Shown piece by piece: positions 1 through 60,584 of a DNA stretch of 64,000 nt. How positions within the stretch are numbered: the first letter of the stretch is position 1; each line of letters starts with the position of its first letter. A program made the translations under genes and the position numbers. The stretch comes from Diplosphaera chodatii (taxonomy: Eukaryota > Chlorophyta > Trebouxiophyceae > Prasiolales > Stichococcaceae), in contig JAALGY010000017.1 of assembly GCA_032358165.1 (NCBI GenBank), positions 1,240,001 to 1,304,000 on the forward strand. Direction: 5' to 3'. The notes below the pieces were generated by a model, which was not told the origin of the DNA, ran no database searches, and saw only the letters and a list, made by a program, of their open reading frames with translations.

Positions 1-3000
1 CTGGGATCACGCCCACATGCTCCGTCGCCACTCCGTCTGCACCACCGCAGGCGACATGTGTTCTGCCCGGCGACACGCGGCCCCCGCGGCGGCGCCGGCC
101 GCGGCCGTGGCCGTGGCAGGCAGGGCAACACTCCGAGGCGCCAGGACTCGAAGGAGGCGGACGCGGCAGGAGCCGCCTCAGCGAACGCTGTCCAGAACGC
201 CGTGAACGCCGTAAGGGACTTCGGTCAGCAGCTCGCGGGTCGGATGAACGGTGGCGCCGCTGCATCCTCACAATCGCAGGGCATGGTGAGCAGGCCTTTC
301 CACTTGTTCTCTGTGCAGAACCGTGCTGCATGATCCAAATGGAACATGCATGGCTGCCCAATGTCATGTACGCTCATGATTGGACACATGAAATGCCGCT
401 GAGTGAGCAGACCCTCGCATGCGTTGTGCTGCAGGATGCAGCTGATGAGCGGGCGCGTGCAAATCAGGAAGCAGAGGATGCTATTCGCGCATTCAAGGAA
501 GCGTCGGAGGCGCGCTACAAGGCAGAGTCTGCTGCACCAAAGTCGCCCCCCCAGCAGGTGCAGTGCTTCTGCAACCTGACTGTGTGTTGTTGCAGTCACT
601 GGAATGCTTTTGTTGCCGTGTCCGTGCAGCATCATCCTGAAGTATGCCACCTCTTGATCGCCTTTTGGCTTGATAGCACACTGGGATTGTCAGCTGTGCA
701 ACCGCCAGCTCGCTGTTGGGCCTGCAGGAGGATGCAGGGCGTGGCCAGGTGCAGAAGGTGCCCGCCCACTTGAGTGCAGCTGATGAGCGGCTGCGGCGAG
801 AGCGTGCAAATCAGGAAGCAGAGGATGCTGTTCGCGCATTCAAGCAAGCGTCTGAGGCGCGCTACAAGGCAAACCCATCACCAAAGTCGGCCCCCCAGCA
901 GCAGGTGCAGAGACCTGCCTGCATGTTGTTGCAGTGGCTGGAATGCTTTTGTTGCCGTGTCTGTGCAGCATCGTCCCGAAAGATGCCACCTCTTCATCGC
1001 CCTATGGCCTTGGTAGCACATGGGGATTCTCAGATGTGCAACACCAGCGCGCTGCTGGCTCTGCAGGGGAAGGCTGTGGCTGCCGATGAGCGGGCGCGGC
1101 GTGAGCGTGCGAACCAGGAAGCAGAGGATGCTGTTCGCGCATTTAAGGAAGCATCCGATGCGCGCTACAAGGCAGAGTCTGCTGCACCAAAGGCCCCCCA
1201 GCAGCAGGTGCAGTGCTTCTGCAACCTGCCTGCGTGTTGTTGCAGTGGCTTGAATGCATTTGTTGCCGTTCCCATGCAGCAGCATCCTGAAAATGCCATC
1301 TCTTGATCGCCTTATGGCTTGATAGCACATGGGTTTGTCAGATGTGCAATGCAAGCGCGCTGCTGGGCCTGCAGGCGGATACAGGGCGTGGCCAGGTGCA
1401 AAAGGTGCCCGCCCACTTGAGTGCAGCTGATGAGCGGGCGCGGCGAGAGCGTGCGAATCAGGAAGCAGAGGATGCTGTTCGCGCATTCAAGCAAGCGTCT
1501 GAGGCGCGCTACAAGGCAAACCCATCACCAAAGTCGGCCCCCCAGCAGCAGGTGCAGTGCTTCTGCAACCTGCCTGCATATTGCTGCAGTGGCTGGAATG
1601 CTGTTATTATTGCCGTGTCCGTGCAGCACCGTCCCGAAAGATGCCATCTCTTCATCACCCTATGGCTTCATACCACACGGCAATTATCAGATGTGCAACA
1701 CCAGCGCGCTGCTGGCTCTGCAGGGGAAGACTGCGGCTGCCGATGAGCGGGCGCGGCGTGAGCGTGCGAACCAGGAAGCAGAGGATGCTGTTCGCGCATT
1801 CAAGGAAGCGTCCGAGGCGCGCTACAAGACGGAGTCTGCTGCACCAAAGTCGCCCCCCCAGCAGCAGGTGCAGTGCTTCTGCAACCTGCCTGCATGTGTT
1901 GCAGTGGCTTGAATGCTTTTGTTGCCGTGCCCGCGCAGCATCATCCTAAAATCTGCCATCTCTTCATTGCCTTATGGCTTGATAGCACATGGGTTTGTCA
2001 GATGTGCAATGCAAGCGCGGTGTTGGGCCTGCAGGCGGATACAGGGCGTGGCCAGGTGCAGAAGGTGCCCGCCCACTTGAGTGCAGCTGATGAGCGGCTG
2101 CGGCGAGAGCGTGCGAATCAGGAAGCAGAGGATGCTGTTCGCGCATTCAAGCAAGCGTCTGAGGCGCGCTACAAGGCAAACCCATCACCAAAGTCGGCCC
2201 CCCAGCAGCAGGTGCAGTGCTTCTGCAACCTGCCTGCATATTGCTGCAGTGGCTGGAATGCCGTTATCATTGCCGTGTCTGTGCAGCACCGTCCCGAAAG
2301 ATGCCACCTCTTTATCGTCCTATGGCTTGATAGCACATGGGGAATATCAAATGTGCAACACCAGCGCGCTGCTGGCTCTGCAGGGGAAGACTGCGGCTGC
2401 CGATGAGCGGGCGCGGCGTGAGCGTGCGAACCAGGAAGCAGAGGATGCTCTTCGCGCATTCAAGGAAGCATCCAATGCGCGCTACAAGGCAGAGTCTGCT
2501 GCACCAAAGGCCCCCCAGCAGCAGGTGCAGTGCTTCTGCAACCTGCCTGCGTGTTGTTGCAGTGGCTTGAATGCTTTTGTTGCCGTTCCCATGCAGCAGC
2601 ATCCTGAAAATGACATCTCTTTATCTTCTTACGGCTTCATAGCACATGGGTTTGTCAGATGTGCAATGCAAGCGCGGTGTTGGGCCTGCAGGCGGATACA
2701 GGGCGTGGCCAGGTGCAGAAGGTGCCCGCCCACTTGAGTGCATCTGATGAGCGGGCGCGGCGAGAGCGTGCGAATCAGGAAGCAGAGGATGCTGTTCGCG
2801 CATTCAAGCAAGCGTCTGAGGCGCGCTACAAGGCAAACCCATCACCAAAGTCGGCCCCCCAGCAGCAGGTGCAGTGCTTCTGCAACCTGCCTGCATATTG
2901 CTGCTGTGGCTGGAATGCTGTTATCATTGCCGTGTCTGTGCAGCACCGTCCCGAAAGATGCCACCTCTTTATCGCCCTATGGCTTGATAGCACATGGGGA

Positions 3001-6000
3001 GTATCAGATGTGCAACACCAGCGCGTTGCTGGCTCTGCAGGGGAAGACTGCGGCTGCCGATGAGCGGGCGCGGCGTGAGCGTGCGAACCAGGAAGCAGAG
3101 GATGCTCTTCGCGCATTCAAGGAAGCATCCAATGCGCGCTACAAGGCAGAGTCTGCTGCACCAAAGGCCCCCCAGCAGCAGGTGCAGTGCTTCTGCAACC
3201 TGCCTGCGTGTTGTTGCAGTGGCTTGAATGCTTTTGTTGCCGTTCCCATGCAGCAGCATCCTGAAAATGCCATCTCTTTATCTTCTTACGGCTTGATAGC
3301 ACATGGGTTTGTCAGATGTGCAATGCAAGCGCGGTGTTGGGCCTGCAGGCGGATACAGGGCGTGGCCAGGTGCAAAAGGTGCCCACCACCTTGAGTGCAT
3401 CTGATGAGCGGGCGCGGCGAGAGCGTGCGAATCAGGAAGCAGAGGATGCTGTTCGCGCATTCAAGCAAGCGTCTGAGGCGCGCTACAAGGCAAACCCATC
3501 ACCAAAGTCGGCCCCCCAGCAGCAGGTGCAGTGCTTCTGCAACCTGCCTGCATATTGCTGCAGTGGCTGGAATGCCGTTATCTTTGCCGTGTCTGTGCAG
3601 CACCGTCCCGAAAGATGCCACCTCTTTATCGTCCTATGGCTTGATAGCACATGGGGAATATCAAATGTGCAACACCAGCGCGCTGCTGGCTCTGCAGGGG
3701 AGGACTGCGGCTGCCGATGAGCGGGCGCGGCGTGAGCGTGCGAACCAGGAAGCAGAGGATGCTCTTCGCGCATTCAAGGAAGCATCCAATGCGCGCTACA
3801 AGGCAGAGTCTGCTGCACCAAAGGCCCCCCAGCAGCAGGTGCAGTGCTTCTGCAATCTGCCTGCGTGTTGTTGCAGTGGCTTGAATGCTTTTGTTGCCGT
3901 TCCCATGCAGCATCATCCTGAAAATAACATCTCTTTATCTTCTTACGGCTTGATAGCACATGAGATTGTCAGATGTGCAATGCAAGCGCGCCATTGGGCC
4001 TGCAGGCGGATACAGGGCGTGGCCAGGTGCAAAAGGTGCCCACCACCTTGAGTGCATCTGATGAGCGGGCGCGGCGAGAGCGTGCGAATCAGGAAGCAGA
4101 GGATGCTGTTCGCGCATTCAAGCAAGCGTCTGAGGCGCGCTACAAGGCAAACCCATCACCAAAGTCGGCCCCCCAGCAGCAGGTGCAGTGCTTCTGCAAC
4201 CTGCCTGCATATTGCTGCAGTGGCTGGAATGCCGTTATCATTGCCGTGTCTGTGCAGCACCGTCCCGAAAGATGCCACCTCTTTATCGTCCTATGGCTTG
4301 ATAGCACATGGGGAATATCAAATGTGCAACACCAGTGCGCTGCTGGCTCTGCAGGGGAAGACTGCGGCTGCCGATGAGCGGGCGCGGCGTGAGCGTGCGA
4401 ACCAGGAAGCAGAGGATGCTCTTCGCGCATTCAAGGAAGCATCCAATGCGCGCTACAAGGCAGAGTCTGCTGCACCAAAGGCCCCCCAGCAGCAGGTGCA
4501 GTGCTTCTGCAACCTGCCTGCGTGTTGTTGCAGTGGCTTGAATGCTTTTGTTGCCGTTCCCATGCAGCAGCATCCTGAAAATGACATCTCTTTATCTTCT
4601 TACGGCTTCATAGCACATGGGTTTGTCAGATGTGCAATGCAAGCGCGGTGTTGGGCCTGCAGGCGGATACAGGGCGTGGCCAGGTGCAGAAGGTGCCCGC
4701 CCACTTGAGTGCATCTGATGAGCGGGCGCGGCGAGAGCGTGCGAATCAGGAAGCAGAGGATGCTGTTCGCGCATTCAAGCAAGCGTCTGAGGCGCGCTAC
4801 AAGGCAAACCCATCACCAAAGTCGGCCCCCCAGCAGCAGGTGCAGTGCTTCTGCAACCTGCCTGCATATTGCTGCTGTGGCTGGAATGCTGTTATCATTG
4901 CCGTGTCTGTGCAGCACCGTCCCGAAAGATGCCACCTCTTTATCGCCCTATGGCTTGATAGCACATGGGGAGTATCAGATGTGCAACACCAGCGCGTTGC
5001 TGGCTCTGCAGGGGAAGACTGCGGCTGCCGATGAGCGGGCGCGGCGTGAGCGTGCGAACCAGGAAGCAGAGGATGCTCTTCGCGCATTCAAGGAAGCATC
5101 CAATGCGCGCTACAAGGCAGAGTCTGCTGCACCAAAGGCCCCCCAGCAGCAGGTGCAGTGCTTCTGCAATCTGCCTGCGTGTTGTTGCAGTGGCTTGAAT
5201 GCATTTGTTGCCGTTCCCATGCAGCAGCATCCTGAAAATAACAGCTCTTTATCTTCTTACGGCTTGATAGCACATGGGATTGTCAGATGTGCAATGTAAG
5301 CGCGCCATTGGGCCTGCAGGAGGATACAGGGCGTGGCCAGGTGCAAAAGGTGCCCACCACCTTGAGTGCATCTGATGAGCGGCTGCGGCGAGAGCGTGCG
5401 AATCAGGAAGCAGAGGATGCTGTTCGCGCATTCAAGCAAGCGTCTGAGGCGCGCTACAAGGCAAACCCTTCACCAAAGTCGGCCCCCCAGCAGCAGGTGC
5501 AGTGCTTCTGCAACCTGCCTGCATGTTGTTGCAGTGGCTGGAATGCTTTTGTTGCCGTGTCTGTGCAGCACCGTCCCGAAAGATGCCACCTCTTTATCGC
5601 CCTTTGGCTTGATAGCACATGGGGAGTATCAGATGTGCAACACCAGCGCGCTGCTGGCTCTGCAGGGGAAGACTGCGGCTGCCGATGAGCGGGCGCGGCG
5701 TGAGCGTGCGAACCAGGAAGCAGAGGATGCTCTTCGCGCATTCAAGGAAGCATCCAATGCGCGCTACAAGACGGAGTCTGCTGCACCAAAGGCCCCCCAG
5801 CAGCAGGTGCAGTGCTTCTGCAACCTGCCTGCATGTGTTGCACTGGCTGGAATGCTTTTGTTGCCGTGCCCGCGCAGCACCATCCTAAAGTCTGCCCTCT
5901 CTTCATAGCCTTATGGATTGATAGCACATGGGTTTGTCAGATGTGCAATGCCAGCTCGCTGTTGGGCCTGCAGGAGGATGCAGGGCGTGGTCAGGTGCAG

Positions 6001-9000
6001 AAGGTGCCCGCCCACTTGAGTGCATCTGATGAGCGGCTGCGGCGAGAGCGTGCGAACCAGGAAGCAGAGGATGCTGTTCGCGCATTCAAGCAAGCGTCTG
6101 AGGCGCGCTACAAGGCAAACCCATCACCAAAGTCGGCCCCCCAGCAGCAGGTGCAGTGCTTCTGGACCTGCCTGCATGTTGTTGCAGCGGCTGGAATTCT
6201 GTTGTTACCGTGTCTGTGCAGCTCCATCCTGAAATGTGCCATCCCTTCGTCGCCTTACGGCTTGGTAGCACATGTGGATTGTCAGATGTGCAACACCAGG
6301 GCGCTGCTGGCTCTGCAGGGGAAGGCTGTGGCTGCCGATGAGCGGGCACGGCGTGAGCGTGCGAACCAGGAAGCAGAGGATGCTCTTCGCGCATTCAAGC
6401 AAGCGTCTGAGGCGCGCTACAAGGCAGAGTCTACTGCACCAAAGTCGCCACCCCAGCAGCAGGTGCAGCGCTTCTGCAACCTGCCTGCATGTTATTGCAG
6501 TGGCTGGAATGCTTTTGTTGCCGTGTCTGCGCAGCATCATCCTGAAAACTGCCATCTATTCATCGCCTTGTGGCTTGATAGCACACTGCGATTGTCAGAT
6601 GTGCAATGCCAGCGTGCTGTTGGGCCTGCAGGAGGATGCAGGGCGTGGCCAGGTGCAAAAGGTGCCCACCACCTTGAGTGCATCTGATGAGCGGGCGCGG
6701 CGAGAGCGTGCGAATCAGGAAGCAGAGGATGCTGTTCGCGCATTCAAGCAAGCGTCTGAGGCGCGCTACAAGGCAAACCCTTCACCAAAGTCGGCCCCCC
6801 AGCAGCAGGTGCAGTGCTTCTGGACCTGCCTGCATGTTGTTGCAGCGGCTGGAATGCTTTTGTTACCGTGTCTGTGCAGCTCCATCCTGAAATACGCCGT
6901 CCTTCGTCGCCTTACGGCTTGGTAGCACATGTGGATTGTCAGATGTGCAACACCAGGCGCTTCTGGCTCTGCAGGGGAAGGCTGTGGCTGCCGATGAGCG
7001 GGCGCGGCGAGAGCGTGCGAACCAGGAAGCAGAGGATGCTCTTCGCGCATTCAAGCAAGCGTCTGAGGCGCGCTACAAGGCAGAGTCTGCTGCACCAAAG
7101 ACGCGCCCCCAGCAGGTGCAGTGCTTCTGCAACCTGACTGCGTGTTGTTGCAGTCACTGTGCAGCTTTTGTTGCCATGTCCGTGCAGCATCATCCTGAAA
7201 AATGCCATCTCTTCATGGCCCTATGGCTTGATAGCACCCTGGGATTGTCAGATGTGCAACGCCAGCTCGCTGTTGGGCCTGCAGGAGGATGCAGGGCGTG
7301 GCCAGGCACAAAAGGTGCCCGCCACCTTGAGTGCAGCTGATGAGCGGCTGCGGCGAGAGCGTGCGAATCAGGAAGCAGAGGATGCTGTTCGCGCATTCAA
7401 GCAAGCGTCTGAGGCGCGCTACAAGGCAAACCCTTCACCAAAGTCGGCCCCCCAGCAGCAGGTGCAGTGCTTCTGGACCTGCCTGCATGTTGTTGCAGCG
7501 GCTGGAATTCTGTTGTTACCGTGTCTGTGCAGCTCCATCCTGAAATATGCCATCCCTTCGTCGCCTTACGGCTTGGTAGCACATGTGGGTTGTCAGATGT
7601 GCAACACCAGGGCGCTGCTGGCTCTGCAGGGGAAGGCTGTGGCTGCCGATGAGCGGGCACGGCGTGAGCGTGCGAACCAGGAAGCAGAGGATGCTCTTCG
7701 CGCATTCAAGCAAGCGTCTGAGGCGCGCTACAAGGCAGAGTCTGCTGCACCAAAGACGCGCCCCCAGCAGGTGCAGTGCTTCTGCAGTCTGACTGCGTGT
7801 TGTTGCAGTCACTGGAATGCTTTTGTTGCCATGTCCGTGCAGCTTTTGTTGCCATGTCCGTGCAGCATCATCCTGAAAAATGCCATCTCTTCATTGCCCT
7901 ATGGCTTGATAGCACCCTGGGATTGCCAGATGTGCAACGCCAGCTCGCTGTTGGGCCTGCAGGAGGATGCAGGGCGTGGCCAGGCACAGAAGGTGCCCGC
8001 CACCTTGAGTGCAGCTGATGAGCGGGCGCGGCGAGAGCGTGCGAATCAGGAAGCAGAGGATGCTGTGCGCGCATTCAAGCGAGCGTCTGAGGCGCGCTAC
8101 AAGGCAAACCCTTCACCAAAGTCGGCCCCCCAGCAGCAGGTGCAGTGCTTCTGGACCTGCCTGCATGTTGTTGCAGCGGCTGGAATGCTTTTGTTACCGT
8201 GTCTGTGCAGCTCCATCCTGAAATACGCCGTCCCTTTGTCGCCTTACGGCTTGGTAGCACATGTGGATTGTCAGATGTGCAACACCAGGGTGCTGCTGGC
8301 TCTGCAGGGGAAGGCTGTGGCTGCCGATGAGCGGGCGCGGCGTGAGCGTGCGAACCAGGAAGCAGAGGATGCTCTTCGCGCATTCAAGCAAGCGTCTGAG
8401 GCGCGCTACAAGGCAGAGTCTGCTGCACCAAAGACGCGCCCCCAGCAGGTGCAGCGCTTCTGCAACCTGCCTGCATAGTGCTGCAGTGGCTGGAATGCTT
8501 TTGTTGCCATGTCCGTGCAGCATCATCCTGAAGTGTGCCATCTATTCATAGCCTTATGGCTTGATAGCACACTGGGATTGTCAGATGTGCAATGCCTGCA
8601 CGCTGTTGGGCCTGCAGGAGGATACAGGGCGTGGCCAGGCACAAAAGGTGCCCGCCACCCTAAGTGCATCTGATGAGCGGGCGCGGCGAGAGCGTGCGAA
8701 TCAGGAAGCAGAGGATGCTATCCGCGCTTTCAAACAAGGGTCCCAGGCGGGCCGCAAGGCAGACCCTGCTGCATCAAAGGCGCGCCCCCAGCAGCAGGTG
8801 CAGTGCTTCTGCAACCTGCCTGCATTGTGCTGCAGTGGCTGGAATGCTTTTTGTTGCGGAGTCTGTGCAGCACCATCGTGATTCATGCCATGTCTTCGTC
8901 GCCGTACGGCTTGATAAGCATGCGGGGATTGTCAGATGTGCAACACCAGGGCGCTGCTGGCTCTGCAGGGGAAGACTGCGGCTGCCGATGAGGCGGCGCG

Positions 9001-11586
9001 GCGACAGCGTGCGAATCAGGAAGCAGAGGATGCTATTCGCGCATTCAAGCAAGGGTCCCAGCCGGGCCGCAAGGCAGACCCTGCTGCATCAAAGGCGCGC
9101 CCCCAGCAGCAGGTGCAGTGCTTCTGCAACCTGCCTGCATAGTGCTGCAGTGGCTGGAATGCTTTGGTTGCGGAGTCTGTGCAGCACCATCGTAATTCAT
9201 GCCATGTCTTCGTCGCCGTACGGCTTGATAAGCATGCGGGGATTGTCAGATGTGCAACACCAGGGCGCTGCTGGCTCTGCAGGGGAAGACTGCGGCTGCT
9301 GATGAGGCGGCGCGGCGACAGCGTGCGAATCAGGAAGCAGAGGATGCTATCCGCGCATTCAAGCAAGGGTCCCAGCCGGGCCGCAAGGCAGACCCTGCTG
9401 CATCAAAGGCACGCCCCTTTGCAGCAGCTGCAGTGCTTCTGCAACCTGCCCACACGTTGTTGCAGTGGCTGGAATGCTTTTGTTGCCGTGTCTGTGCAGC
9501 ATCATCCTGAATATGCCAACTCTTCATCGCCTCGTGGCTCGATAAGCACATGGGATTATCAGATATGCAACGCCAGTGCGCTGCTGGCTTTGCAGGGGGG
9601 TTCTGCCGCTGCCGATGAGCGGGCGCGGCGAGAGCGTGCAAATCAGGAAGCAGAGGATGCTATCCGTGCATTCAAGGAGGCATCCCGCAAGGCAGAGTCG
9701 CTGGCGTCTGACGTGCAGCGGGGAGCAGAATCACTGGCATCTGATGTGCAGCGTGGCGCAAGCAAAGCAGCCAGCGAGCTGCGGGGTGGCCTGGACACAG
9801 CCACAGCAGAGGCACAGCGTGCCGCTGACAACATCTCACGGGGTGAGCCTCCGCATGGATCCAGCTGGGCTGCGCTCCAGGGAGGTGCATTTAGGGTTTG
9901 GAATGTGCAGCAGGCCCTCCAGGGATCTGCGGGGTTCCCTGATGAGGATTCAGGCTGTGTCCTAGCTCATCTGTCACAGTGGTGCATGCAGGATGCCTCA
10001 CGTTTCCCTTGCGGATGATGTGCAAGCTGTGCATCTGCGCCCTGTTGAGTGAGTGGGCTGCTGTGTGCTCGCGTCAGGCTCGCCCTACCGGCGCGGGCGG
10101 GCGCTGATCTCCGACGCAGCGCCGCTGACGGCGATGGACGCCGGCGGCGGCGGCGGGGACGCCGTGCCGCACCTCAAGACGCGGGTGCTGGCGCACGTGG
10201 CGGGGCTGGACCGCGGCTTTGCCGCCACCACCCGCCAGGTGCGCCGAGGGAGCGCAGGCTGCACATCCGGCTTGGGGGGCCCTGGTCCCTGACAGCGTGA
10301 TGCTGGCACGCCGCCCAGGCAGCGCGCGACAGCTGGACTGTTTGCCGCAGCTGTGCTGCTGGTCTGCAGCACTGGTGGCCGACATCCAGTGCTGTGCCGC
10401 TGTGCTGCAGGCGGGCCTGGTGGAGGCGGCCGTCAACGACCTGGTGGCCGCAGCCGGCCCCGTGGACCTGAAGTCGTCGTCGTCCGAGGACAGCCAGCGG
10501 ACGCAGCTGGGCGGCACGTGGCGCCTGGTGTACTCCTCGGGCTTTGCCGCCACGCGCTCCACCGGCGGCAGCCGCCCCGGCTTCCCCATCAAGCTGATGC
10601 CCGCCGACCTTGGCCAGGCGCGCCGCTTGCCCCAATCAAAAGTGCACTGGTTCTCTGCCGCTGCGCCCTCATACCCGGGGCCTTACCACCTGTGTGCTCC
10701 CAGCTCCGGCTGTCCCGTCCATGTGCTTGTGTGTCGTGAGACTACCCCCTCGTCCTGCTGGCACACGAGCTCGCCAGCAGCCAGGGTGCCTTGCTTTGGT
10801 GCCATTTTGCCAGCAATCATGGTTGCTGCAGCATTGAAGTCTGGGTGTGCTGACGCTGCAGCGTGTGTGCTGCAGGTGTACCAGGGCATCGACGAGCAGC
10901 TGGAGGAGCTGGACAATGTGGTGGAGCTGCGGTCCATGGCGCTGCCCTCGCTGCCGTTCGCGCCCAAGAACCAGGACGCCGAGGCGCTGCTCACGCTGAA
11001 GCACAGCCTCGGCATCAACGAGCCCCGCACCCTGGAGATCACCTACACCGGCACCGACGTCAGCCTGCAGGGTGGGTCGGACCCCGGTGTGCATCTACCC
11101 CTATGCGCCACATGCCTGCAGGCTGCCTGTGTTCATTGGCTGTGCATCTGGCCCATGGGGTGCAGCGGGAACTGGGTTGAGGGTGCGCTGTGGCTGGTGT
11201 CCAGGCGGCATCGGCGGGCTGCTGAACAATGTGCCCGAATTCACGTTGCCAGAGCTGCCGGAGGGCCTGCGCCCGAGCTCCGAGAAGCGCTCCGCCACCT
11301 TCGACGTCATCTTCCTGGATGAGGTACGTGCCCTGGGGTGGTTGCACGGTGATGTCCTGACGGTCGAGCTGTACTTGGCGTACCATCAGCGGGTTGCCGC
11401 CTGTACCTTGTCAATGGCAAGGCACATCAGTGTCGCGCATGCTGCGGTTGTACAGCCGCTGCTGCTCACAGTGGATGCATTGCTGGGCAGGAGTGTGCGG
11501 ACCCTGAACCAGGTGTCTTTGTGCTGCAGGATCTGAGAGTGACGCGCGGTGATCGCAACGAGATTCGCGTCTTCTTGCGCACATGA
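1..11586 (+). CDS. Repeat-expanded plastid fibrillin (PAP) protein, 5' partial
   Basis: The reading frame is open at the left edge, so the N-terminus is missing. The first visible coding block (to 285) is Arg/Gly-rich (RGRGRG) and could belong to a transit peptide. Then come 29 repeat exons (435-557 through 9596-9842). The C-terminal exons are 10078-10238, 10411-10617, 10876-11071, 11205-11323 and 11530-11586. These encode a PAP/fibrillin domain: GTWRLVYSSGFA, the VYQGID and LDNVVELR blocks, and a FDVIFLDE...LRVTRGDRNEIRVF end. Fibrillins are lipid-binding plastid proteins of plastoglobules and thylakoids. All junctions keep phase and total at least 1,896 residues here, whereas ordinary fibrillins are a few hundred. 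Intron 10618-10875 starts with GC. The last repeat exon ends in a tail with two copies of ESLASDVQRG. The fibrillin call is firm; the role of the repeat arm is unknown. Confidence 0.85.
435..9842 (+). repeat. Tandem array of 29 repeat exons with their introns
   Basis: Each repeat exon carries the core RRERANQEAEDA.RAFK followed by an A.RYKA segment and a Pro/Gln end. Two classes alternate. A-type exons are 177 nt (for example 728-904, 1375-1551, 2035-2211) and start EDAGRGQ or ADTGRGQ. B-type exons are 141 or 144 nt (1067-1207, 1724-1867, 2384-2524) and start GK.AAADER. One A exon, one B exon and two introns of about 160-170 nt make a 657-bp unit. Almost every exon begins after CTGCAG (the last after TTTGCAG) and nearly all end CAG|GTGCAG; all are phase 0 and multiples of three except the last, 9596-9842. 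Introns are almost as similar between units as exons, implying recent amplification or gene conversion. The predicted peptide is strongly charged and helix-prone. Confidence 0.9.
2312..5240 (+). repeat. Higher-order duplication of a three-unit (1,971-bp) block
   Basis: Within the 657-bp array, units three apart resemble each other more than adjacent units. The translated stretch at 2659-3063 recurs identically at 4630-5034, exactly 1,971 bp (3 x 657) away, and 2621-2803 recurs at 4592-4774. Intron-specific variants, such as a Cys in place of Ser near 2907 and 4878, travel with the block. This indicates a block duplication on top of unit duplication. A tandem misassembly could give the same picture. 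Confidence 0.7.
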
Positions 11587-59803: not shown

Positions 59804-60400
59804 CGTGCTATGATGTTGCTGCCGTGCTGCAGGTTGCCCTCAGCCTGCGTCAATGGCAAAACCATGCAAGTAGTGTTGTATTCGCGCTGCGGGGTGCTGA
59901 GTCGGCAGGCATGCATCTCCACTGAAGCTCATTAACGGGCAGGCTGCCCCGTCAGCCGTCCAAGGCTGTTGAAAGTCTGCAGGTGCACAGCAGGGTCGTT
60001 GATGACACTCACAAGTCGGATCGCGCATGCTCAGGGGCGTCGATGGGGACGGCAAAGCAAGACGCAGCACGAACTTGCGTAGTTGCCACCTGGCAGCTTG
60101 CGCGCCAGGGAGTGCACTAGGGTTTCGTCACGGGCCGTGACTCACGGCCTGCAGGCGCCAACATGCTGCCACACCATGTTTGCCAGCCTCAAAACAACTA
60201 CCAGCGCTCTGATCGCGAAGCCGATCAACCACCCACTGCGGCGTGCTCTGACAGCGCGTAGACCCATTACGGGGGCCACCAACTGCAGCACGGTGAGAAT
60301 GCGTTTCGCAGGTGCATGCACTGCAAGTTCGATTAAATGGGAGCACCTCTGTTGCGGCACGATGTACATGCTGATTTGAACCTTCCCTGTATTGACTTGT
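59804..60400. other. Divergent intergenic region, DUF2306-like and SDR3
   Basis: Holds the promoters of both genes. Apart from the 91-bp duplication starting at 60401, no motif was recognised. Confidence 0.4.
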
Positions 60401-60584
60401 ACCTATGTCTGCTGCTGCAACGATGACCCTCGTCAATAGTAGTACTCAGCTCATGTGGGGATGAAGTGCAGATGGCCAAACTGCCATCGGTACCTATGTC
60501 TGCTGCTGCTACGATGACCCTCGTCAAATAGTAGTACTCAGCTCATGTGTGGGCCTGAAGTGCAGATGGCCAAACTGCTATCGG
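60401..60584 (+). repeat. Tandem duplication of about 91 bp spanning the SDR3 start
   Basis: 60401-60491 and 60492-60584 are near-identical, differing by a few substitutions and small insertions. Each copy contains ATGGCCAAACTG; the second provides the SDR3 start at 60566 and the first gives an upstream ATG at 60472. Confidence 0.9.
60472..60531 (+). other. Upstream ORF created by the duplication
   Basis: The ATG in the first repeat copy opens a 19-residue frame starting MAKLPSV and ending at TAG 60529-60531, before the SDR3 start at 60566. If transcribed in the leader it would be a uORF that could lower SDR3 translation. Transcription start unknown. Confidence 0.4.

Follow-up and report, generated by a model that had tools for sequence, protein, structure and literature searches.

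The window analysed here, a 64,000-nucleotide stretch of an 85.6 Mb assembly of 55 contigs (G000:C15:1240001-1304000), opens with a long array of repeat exons that is followed by exons for a PAP/fibrillin domain. This arrangement raises the question of whether the array and the fibrillin exons constitute one gene and, if so, what a fibrillin would do with such an arm. A gene with the arm and the fibrillin domain was confirmed to be real, mostly as described in the initial annotation. The repeat was found on four contigs, that of the window (C15) and C47, C35, and C52 (57 matches; 62 of 62 candidates were scored). The C47 locus, on the minus strand, duplicates that of C15, and both flanks match by eye. 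The features of the C15 gene are as follows, where P0001 and P0002 are related proteins.

Window -53 to 285 (1 to 285 in the window), plus strand: exon 1, with the transit-peptide-like N-terminus and the start of the arm; aligned with P0002 from residue 1 onward and with C47.
435-557, 728-904, 1067-1207, 1375-1551, 1724-1867, 2035-2211, 2384-2524, 2692-2868, 3041-3181, plus strand: repeat exons 1-9, from exon models.
3349-3525, 3698-3838, 4006-4182, 4355-4495, 4663-4839, 5012-5152, 5320-5496, 5666-5806, 5974-6150, plus strand: repeat exons 10-18, from exon models.
6319-6462, 6632-6808, 6975-7115, 7285-7461, 7630-7770, 7963-8139, 8308-8448, 8618-8797, 8969-9112, plus strand: repeat exons 19-27, from exon models.
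9283-9432, plus strand: repeat copy 28, with the GTGCAG donor lost and a shifted donor after 9432 or skipping possible; exon model.
9596-9842, plus strand: repeat copy 29 and the tail (predicted amphipathic helix), ending in phase 1; the tail is common to P0001 and P0002.
10078-10238, plus strand: fibrillin exon 1, from the PF04755 match over the five spliced exons.
10411-10617, plus strand: fibrillin exon 2 (GTWRLVYSSGFA), whose intron has a GC donor, as in C47; PF04755 and exon model.
10876-11071, plus strand: fibrillin exon 3 (VYQGID); PF04755 and exon model.
11205-11323, plus strand: fibrillin exon 4 (FDVIFLDE); PF04755 and exon model.
11530-11586, plus strand: fibrillin exon 5 with the stop codon (DLRVTRGDRNEIRVFLRT); PF04755 and exon model.

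The ATG of the C15 gene was located at window position -53 (L009:9947), with 54 bases lying before the window, and an in-frame TAA is present 12 nt 5' of it. The gene ends at window position 11586. It had originally been enclosed within positions 1-11586, and its start must now be moved outside the window. The protein encoded from exon 1 starts MLPSSVVATVQQHVPVAHLGSRPHAPSPLRLHHRRRHVFCPATRG. The N-terminal 66 residues contain no acidic and 13 basic residues by composition count and are transit-peptide-like in composition only, so that the plastid location assumed at the outset is plausible. The predicted product is 1,864 aa without copy 28 and 1,914 aa with it. The earlier figure of more than 1,896 residues agrees with the longer form, which is 1,896 aa once the 18 aa that lie ahead of the window are subtracted. 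The predicted masses, transit peptides included, are 202.6 kDa for the C15 product without copy 28 (pI 9.88) and 163.7 kDa for the C47 product. Fibrillins are described in PMC11580037 as major proteins of plastid lipid globules, with subfamily sizes of 20-42 kDa, and both products lie above this range.

TRF placed the C15 array at 2089-8618 and 8672-9676, with earlier copies from 435. In the exon models, repeats 1-27 have acceptors ending in TGCAG and CAG/GTGCAG donors, and each of the 27 has a length divisible by 3 (123-180 nt), is in phase 0, and is free of stops. From copy 2 to copy 27, a long type A (177-180 nt, consensus EDTGRGQVQKVPAHLSASDERARRERANQEAEDAVRAFKQASEARYKANPSPKSAPQQQ) alternates with a short type B (141-144 nt, consensus GKTAAADERARRERANQEAEDALRAFKEASNARYKAESAAPKAPQQQ), and the commonest step in the array is the A+B pair of ~657 bp. 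Copy 28 has CTGCAG in place of the GTGCAG donor of the other copies. It may be spliced from a phase-0 GTGCTT donor after 9432 or be skipped without change of frame, and therefore either 28 or 29 copies are used. The original count of 29 repeat exons in one frame thus holds for 27 canonical phase-0 exons and for copy 29 with its tail, but not securely for copy 28.

Over C15 and C47 together, the canonical repeat exons range from 120 to 180 nt, and 49 of 49 are multiples of 3 (27/27 and 22/22, respectively); the introns between repeats are divisible by 3 in 6 of 26 cases at C15 and 8 of 21 at C47, close to one third. Frame 0 of the repeat exons contains no stops, and the other two frames contain 13 and 69 (C15) and 11 and 38 (C47). 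Retention of the introns as coding sequence was rejected as a rule because an in-phase stop or a length that is not a multiple of 3 was found in 21 of the 26 C15 introns and 19 of the 21 C47 introns. An introner-type mobile intron was likewise rejected, since the repeat intron was matched at C15, C47, and C35 only (at least 41 matches, with 40 of 53 candidates scored), with no genome-wide family; the repeat intron of C52 was recognized by reading.

A composite query of 428 aa (three repeats, the tail, and the domain) matched at least eight proteins among the 7,998 candidates scored. P0002 aligns with the C15 protein from its residue 1 through the tail (E 2e-22 for that comparison), and P0001 aligns from the arm to the domain (E 9e-51). 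P0001 crosses the intron position that separates P0070 and P0085, two exon-sized hits of very similar sequence, and thus it probably originates from spliced RNA. Because these single-chain relatives are collinear from the N-terminus through the arm to the domain, and because C47 has the same architecture, the initial proposal that the array and the fibrillin exons belong to one gene is supported at the level of sequence comparison. The alternative, that the array and the fibrillin exons are two genes transcribed separately, is highly improbable: the arm and the domain lie in one chain in both P0001 and P0002, the same order of repeats and fibrillin recurs at C47, C35, and C52, and C47 retains the phase-1 junction at which the tail meets the domain.

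The C-terminal exons, first assigned to the fibrillin family by their motifs, were compared with the PF04755 profile, and the assignment stands. The five-exon domain of C15 matches with E 3.5e-23 and 83.1 bits (curated cut-off 22) over profile positions 3-197 of 198, and it is by this measure a complete PAP/fibrillin domain. The best PDB match, a fibrillin 5 homolog, has an E of 0.03, and the domain is therefore not placed in a solved structure by sequence alone. A search with the domain alone gave 84 hits among 4,261 candidates, of which the best is P0009 (Astpho2, read as Asterochloris) at 50%. The closest relatives point to a trebouxiophyte green alga as the probable source. A subfamily number appears in 7 of the 84 hit names as displayed, and all seven give 6 (PAP6); judged from these displayed names, the domain appears closest to fibrillin 6. 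The fibrillin 6 hits listed from land plants are short, single-domain proteins (274 aa in Brachypodium), to which C15 adds an arm of 28-29 copies. Fibrillin 6 of plants is reported to reside at the membranes of the thylakoid and the envelope, and phytoene synthase co-precipitates with it (PMC11580037). The land-plant fibrillin 11 also has a large extra N-terminal module, but this is a kinase domain and not a set of repeats (PMC11580037).

The duplicate gene at C47 has 24 repeat copies and encodes 1,529 aa with no internal stops, in the same architecture as C15. Its last two repeats are fused at QQQ/GS, exactly the position of the predicted splice junction, and this fusion provides independent support for that junction. 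The fibrillin parts of the two genes, which have the GC donor of one intron in common, differ by a dN of 0.058 and a dS of 0.174 over 245 codons. Exon 1 of C47 (L021/L022) holds an intron with an exact junction that is absent from C15 (window 1-285). One intron of the C47 array carries a dispersed element, an insert of ~740 bp (C47:1791677-1791974 and adjoining bases, L021); a 298-bp piece of it occurs at six places in the genome, itself included, at 78-100%.

C35 and C52 form a second duplicated pair and encode a different fibrillin, with the N-terminus MQLYTKR and two repeat copies ahead of the fibrillin domain at each locus. The C35 fibrillin matches PF04755 with E 1.2e-48, and from its motifs the protein may resemble the FBN1/2 plastoglobulin type. 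PAP/fibrillin matches on the opposite (minus) strand adjoin the two-repeat genes (C35:254848-256063 and C52:278115-278270), which suggests that C35 and C52 hold head-to-head fibrillin pairs. At least two locus pairs, C15/C47 and C35/C52, are duplicated with flanking or gene-wide similarity, and two diverged subgenomes or haplotypes may be present in the assembly.

The history of the arrays was followed by comparing units of one exon plus one intron, 27 from C15 and 21 from C47. Within arrays the unit similarity is 0.92 (A) and 0.90 (B) for C15 and 0.91 (A) and 0.92 (B) for C47; between C15 and C47 it is 0.84 (A) and 0.83 (B), and between A and B within C15 it is 0.83. The higher similarity within than between arrays indicates that each array was homogenised separately. 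The unit tree separates A from B except for unit 27 (B), which falls with unit 26 (A). An exact self-match of 833 bp in C15, at an offset of 1,971 bp or three 657-bp pairs, is a sign of recent block duplication. The repeat introns (window 557-9595, C47 in L021/L022, L020:5536-5708, and L019:5762-5930) have a mean identity of 0.79 between C15 and C47, 0.81 between C35 and C15, and 0.78 between C52 and C15; the single-copy fibrillin introns of C15 and C47 give 0.58-0.75, and the shuffled control has a mean of 0.51. The introns between repeats are thus unusually conserved between loci, and gene conversion or a splicing constraint could explain this.

Values of pN/pS were determined within arrays for exons of the same length only (12 A and 10 B from C15, 10 A and 11 B from C47), leaving out C15 copies 1, 5, 19, 26, and 27 and C47 copy 1. 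The C47 values are 0.32 (A) and 0.08 (B), with off-frame controls of 0.92 and 1.3 for A and 1.94 and 9.44 for B. The C15 values are 0.76 (A) and 0.64 (B), with off-frame controls of 0.66 and 1.32 for A and 0.88 and 0.86 for B. Purifying selection on the repeats is clear at C47 and weak at C15, where the in-frame values lie so near the off-frame value of 0.66 for type A that the window's own copies are under weak constraint.

The initial annotation had described the repeat as charged and helix-prone, and the modeling agrees. AlphaFold was applied to the natural fused exon of C47, which comprises two repeats and the tail (139 aa), with an alignment of six sequences of the source genome. The model has helices at 14-44 and at 58-138, the latter with a block pLDDT of 84-96, joined by a low-confidence linker (45-57); the mean is 80.6 and the pTM 0.42. 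The arm would accordingly be built of one ~31-residue helix per repeat with a flexible linker, ending in an 81-residue tail helix. The C15 arm without copy 28 is 1,506 aa long, has a net charge of +60, is 35.7% charged, contains no Trp or Cys, and, relative to the charge-hydropathy line, falls on the disordered side. Amphipathicity of the repeat is weak (hydrophobic moment 0.36-0.41), and the string is therefore unlikely to coat lipid. In the repeat core, 0.70 of core positions are apolar (Ala counted) under a 7-residue pattern and 0.56 under an 11-residue pattern; this better fit to seven residues makes helix pairing or self-association possible. The 11-residue amphipathic periodicity reaches 0.88 in the tail and 0.81 in the arm of P0005. 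A tetratricopeptide origin was rejected, as the best PDB matches are designed TPR-like chains at E 0.14-0.2 and the modeled repeat is one helix, not a pair.

It was stated initially that no described protein has such an architecture, and this claim has to be narrowed. P0001-P0007, one of them from Trebouxia sp. C0010, and P0009 (by reading) have the arm, tail, and domain in the C15 order, with arms that read as helical and apolipoprotein- or LEA-like. P0002 also has its N-terminus in common with the C15 protein. Helical N-terminal arms on fibrillin therefore already exist in Trebouxia- and Asterochloris-type algae. These armed fibrillins are 375-687 aa long and the exon is not amplified in them, whereas the C15 product has 1,864-1,914 aa. 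The LEA-like end noted for the last repeat copy does appear to be an amphipathic helical tail, but it is an ancestral arm tail common to P0001 and P0002, and no Pfam LEA family was matched at E<=1 by the repeats, the tail, or P0001-P0007. Pfam apolipophorin-III was matched at E<=1 by seven of seven of P0001-P0007 (best 4.9e-5), all below the curated cut-off. P0005 scored at best 24.0 bits against PF01442 and 23.1 bits against PF07464, short of the cut-offs of 36.3 and 90, and neither profile was matched by the C15 repeats or tail. The relatives' arms, that of P0005 included, thus weakly resemble exchangeable apolipoproteins and apolipophorin-III, and the C15 tail has the 11-residue pattern; unlike in exchangeable apolipoproteins, the amplified repeat itself is weakly amphipathic. 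We infer a lipid-surface helix as the ancestral arm, of which the amplified exon represents the more polar part.

When the 57 repeat copies were made into a profile, it recognized a single unit in P0001 (residues 57-101; E 8.8e-6 for 1,000 sequences, 21.6 bits) and gave no match at E<=10 in the other 90 of the 91 proteins compared, including P0002, P0003, and P0004. In the control of 200 shuffles for each of nine relatives, of which 118-168 per relative were reported, the best score was 6.7 bits. P0002 aligns through the repeat part of the arm despite the lack of a profile match, and the case for a one-copy ancestor comes from P0001. Among 7,999 candidates scored, no giant relative outside the source genome was matched at E<=0.001, and no fibrillin with a repeat array was found in titles or abstract beginnings of the open-licence literature. 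Within these searches, what looks new is that one arm exon has been multiplied to 24-29 copies and that the copies of each of the two loci have been homogenised on their own.

The architecture of a giant repeat-armed fibrillin is, on the comparisons above, highly probable. We tentatively propose that one nuclear gene specifies a plastid protein of ~200 kDa consisting of a transit peptide, 28-29 short charged helices joined by Pro/Gln-rich linkers, the tail helix, and a fibrillin-6-like domain, and that the string grew as a two-exon unit, itself derived from a single ancestral arm exon, was unequally duplicated. Through its fibrillin domain and tail helix the protein would be anchored to the surface of a thylakoid, the envelope, or a lipid globule, and its cationic string would extend into the stroma as a multivalent tether for many copies of one partner or for itself, with reach and avidity set by repeat number. 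A candidate partner is the C35/C52 fibrillin with its two repeats; the recurrence of the repeat on this second fibrillin points to self-association or to a partner in common, which is the least supported step. This reading draws on the kept frame, the PF04755 match, the collinear relatives, the architecture of C47, the repeats of C35/C52, and the helix-linker model, and further on the net charge of the arm, the periodicity of the tail, the purifying selection at C47, and the membrane association reported for plant fibrillin 6 (PMC11580037). It is weakened by the weak constraint on the C15 copies, the lost donor of copy 28, and the failure to find a giant relative outside the source genome among the 7,999 candidates scored. 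Architecture and membrane- or globule-anchored tether taken jointly have, in our estimate, slightly less than an even chance of being right.

The main rival is neutral or nearly neutral expansion, in which the arm is a tolerated flexible spacer, phase-0 exons multiply cheaply by unequal crossing-over, and copy number is drift. Such growth explains much of the C15 pattern, namely the pN/pS values within the array, the strong homogenisation with its 833-bp exact self-match, the lost splice site of copy 28, and the different copy numbers of the duplicate loci (29 and 24). It accounts poorly for the frame kept in all canonical repeat exons, the low pN/pS values at C47, and the retention of more than 20 copies at both loci, and we consider it rather unlikely, though it is a stronger contender than the three that follow. 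A protective arm, LEA-like, hydrophilic, and conditionally helical, could shield membranes on water loss; the arm is indeed charged, Ala-rich, helix-forming, and without Trp or Cys, and Trebouxia, a lichen alga, is among the relatives. The missing Pfam LEA matches and the poor 11-residue pattern of the amplified core relative to the tail and the P0005 arm make a stress shield improbable.

The arm could also work as Rubisco linkers do, as a multivalent condensate linker that perhaps anchors pyrenoglobuli or thylakoid tubules within the matrix of the pyrenoid. PMC11570498 describes linkers as largely disordered chains with structured elements repeating every 20-120 residues, and the C15 arm, predicted to be a basic (pI 9.9) flexible chain with helices spaced 47-59 residues apart, may fit these rules. 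A pyrenoid role is attractive since linkers of like design are known and, according to PMC10744234, Asterochloris-type pyrenoids hold pyrenoglobuli along thylakoid tubules. The arm possibly resembles EPYC1 and CsLinker in its repeated helices, flexible basic chain, and similar spacing (PMC11570498), but it differs from them in lacking a sequence match, in its longer helices (~31 residues against ~10 in CsLinker), in its greater number of copies, and in its C-terminal folded lipid-binding domain. No solved Rubisco-linker complex was matched among PDB sequences at E<=10, which is weak evidence as linkers are poorly conserved. We give this explanation a small chance. An equally speculative extension makes the protein a multivalent organiser, in which tens of near-identical helical stickers on the membrane-bound fibrillin, together with the two on the second fibrillin, would network lipid globules among thylakoids or in the pyrenoid; unequal crossing-over would tune the number of stickers.

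We know of no described multivalent scaffold that has a fibrillin as its base. If the arm is a tether, the way in which algae organise their thylakoids, plastoglobules, or pyrenoglobuli becomes directly testable. The one-unit P0001, the two-copy genes of C35/C52, and the arrays of 24-29 copies form a natural series in which the contribution of a multivalent arm to a lipid-surface protein could be tested. The gene is also a case of protein lengthening through duplication of phase-0 exons, in which two loci were homogenised separately and two repeats fused naturally at the predicted splice junction.

The minus-strand gene upstream of the C15 fibrillin gene is presumably a trehalose-phosphate synthase, as read from the motifs of its ORFs. 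A 91-bp tandem repeat in two copies at window 60399-60584 is the sole array scoring at least 120 in 11000-64000.
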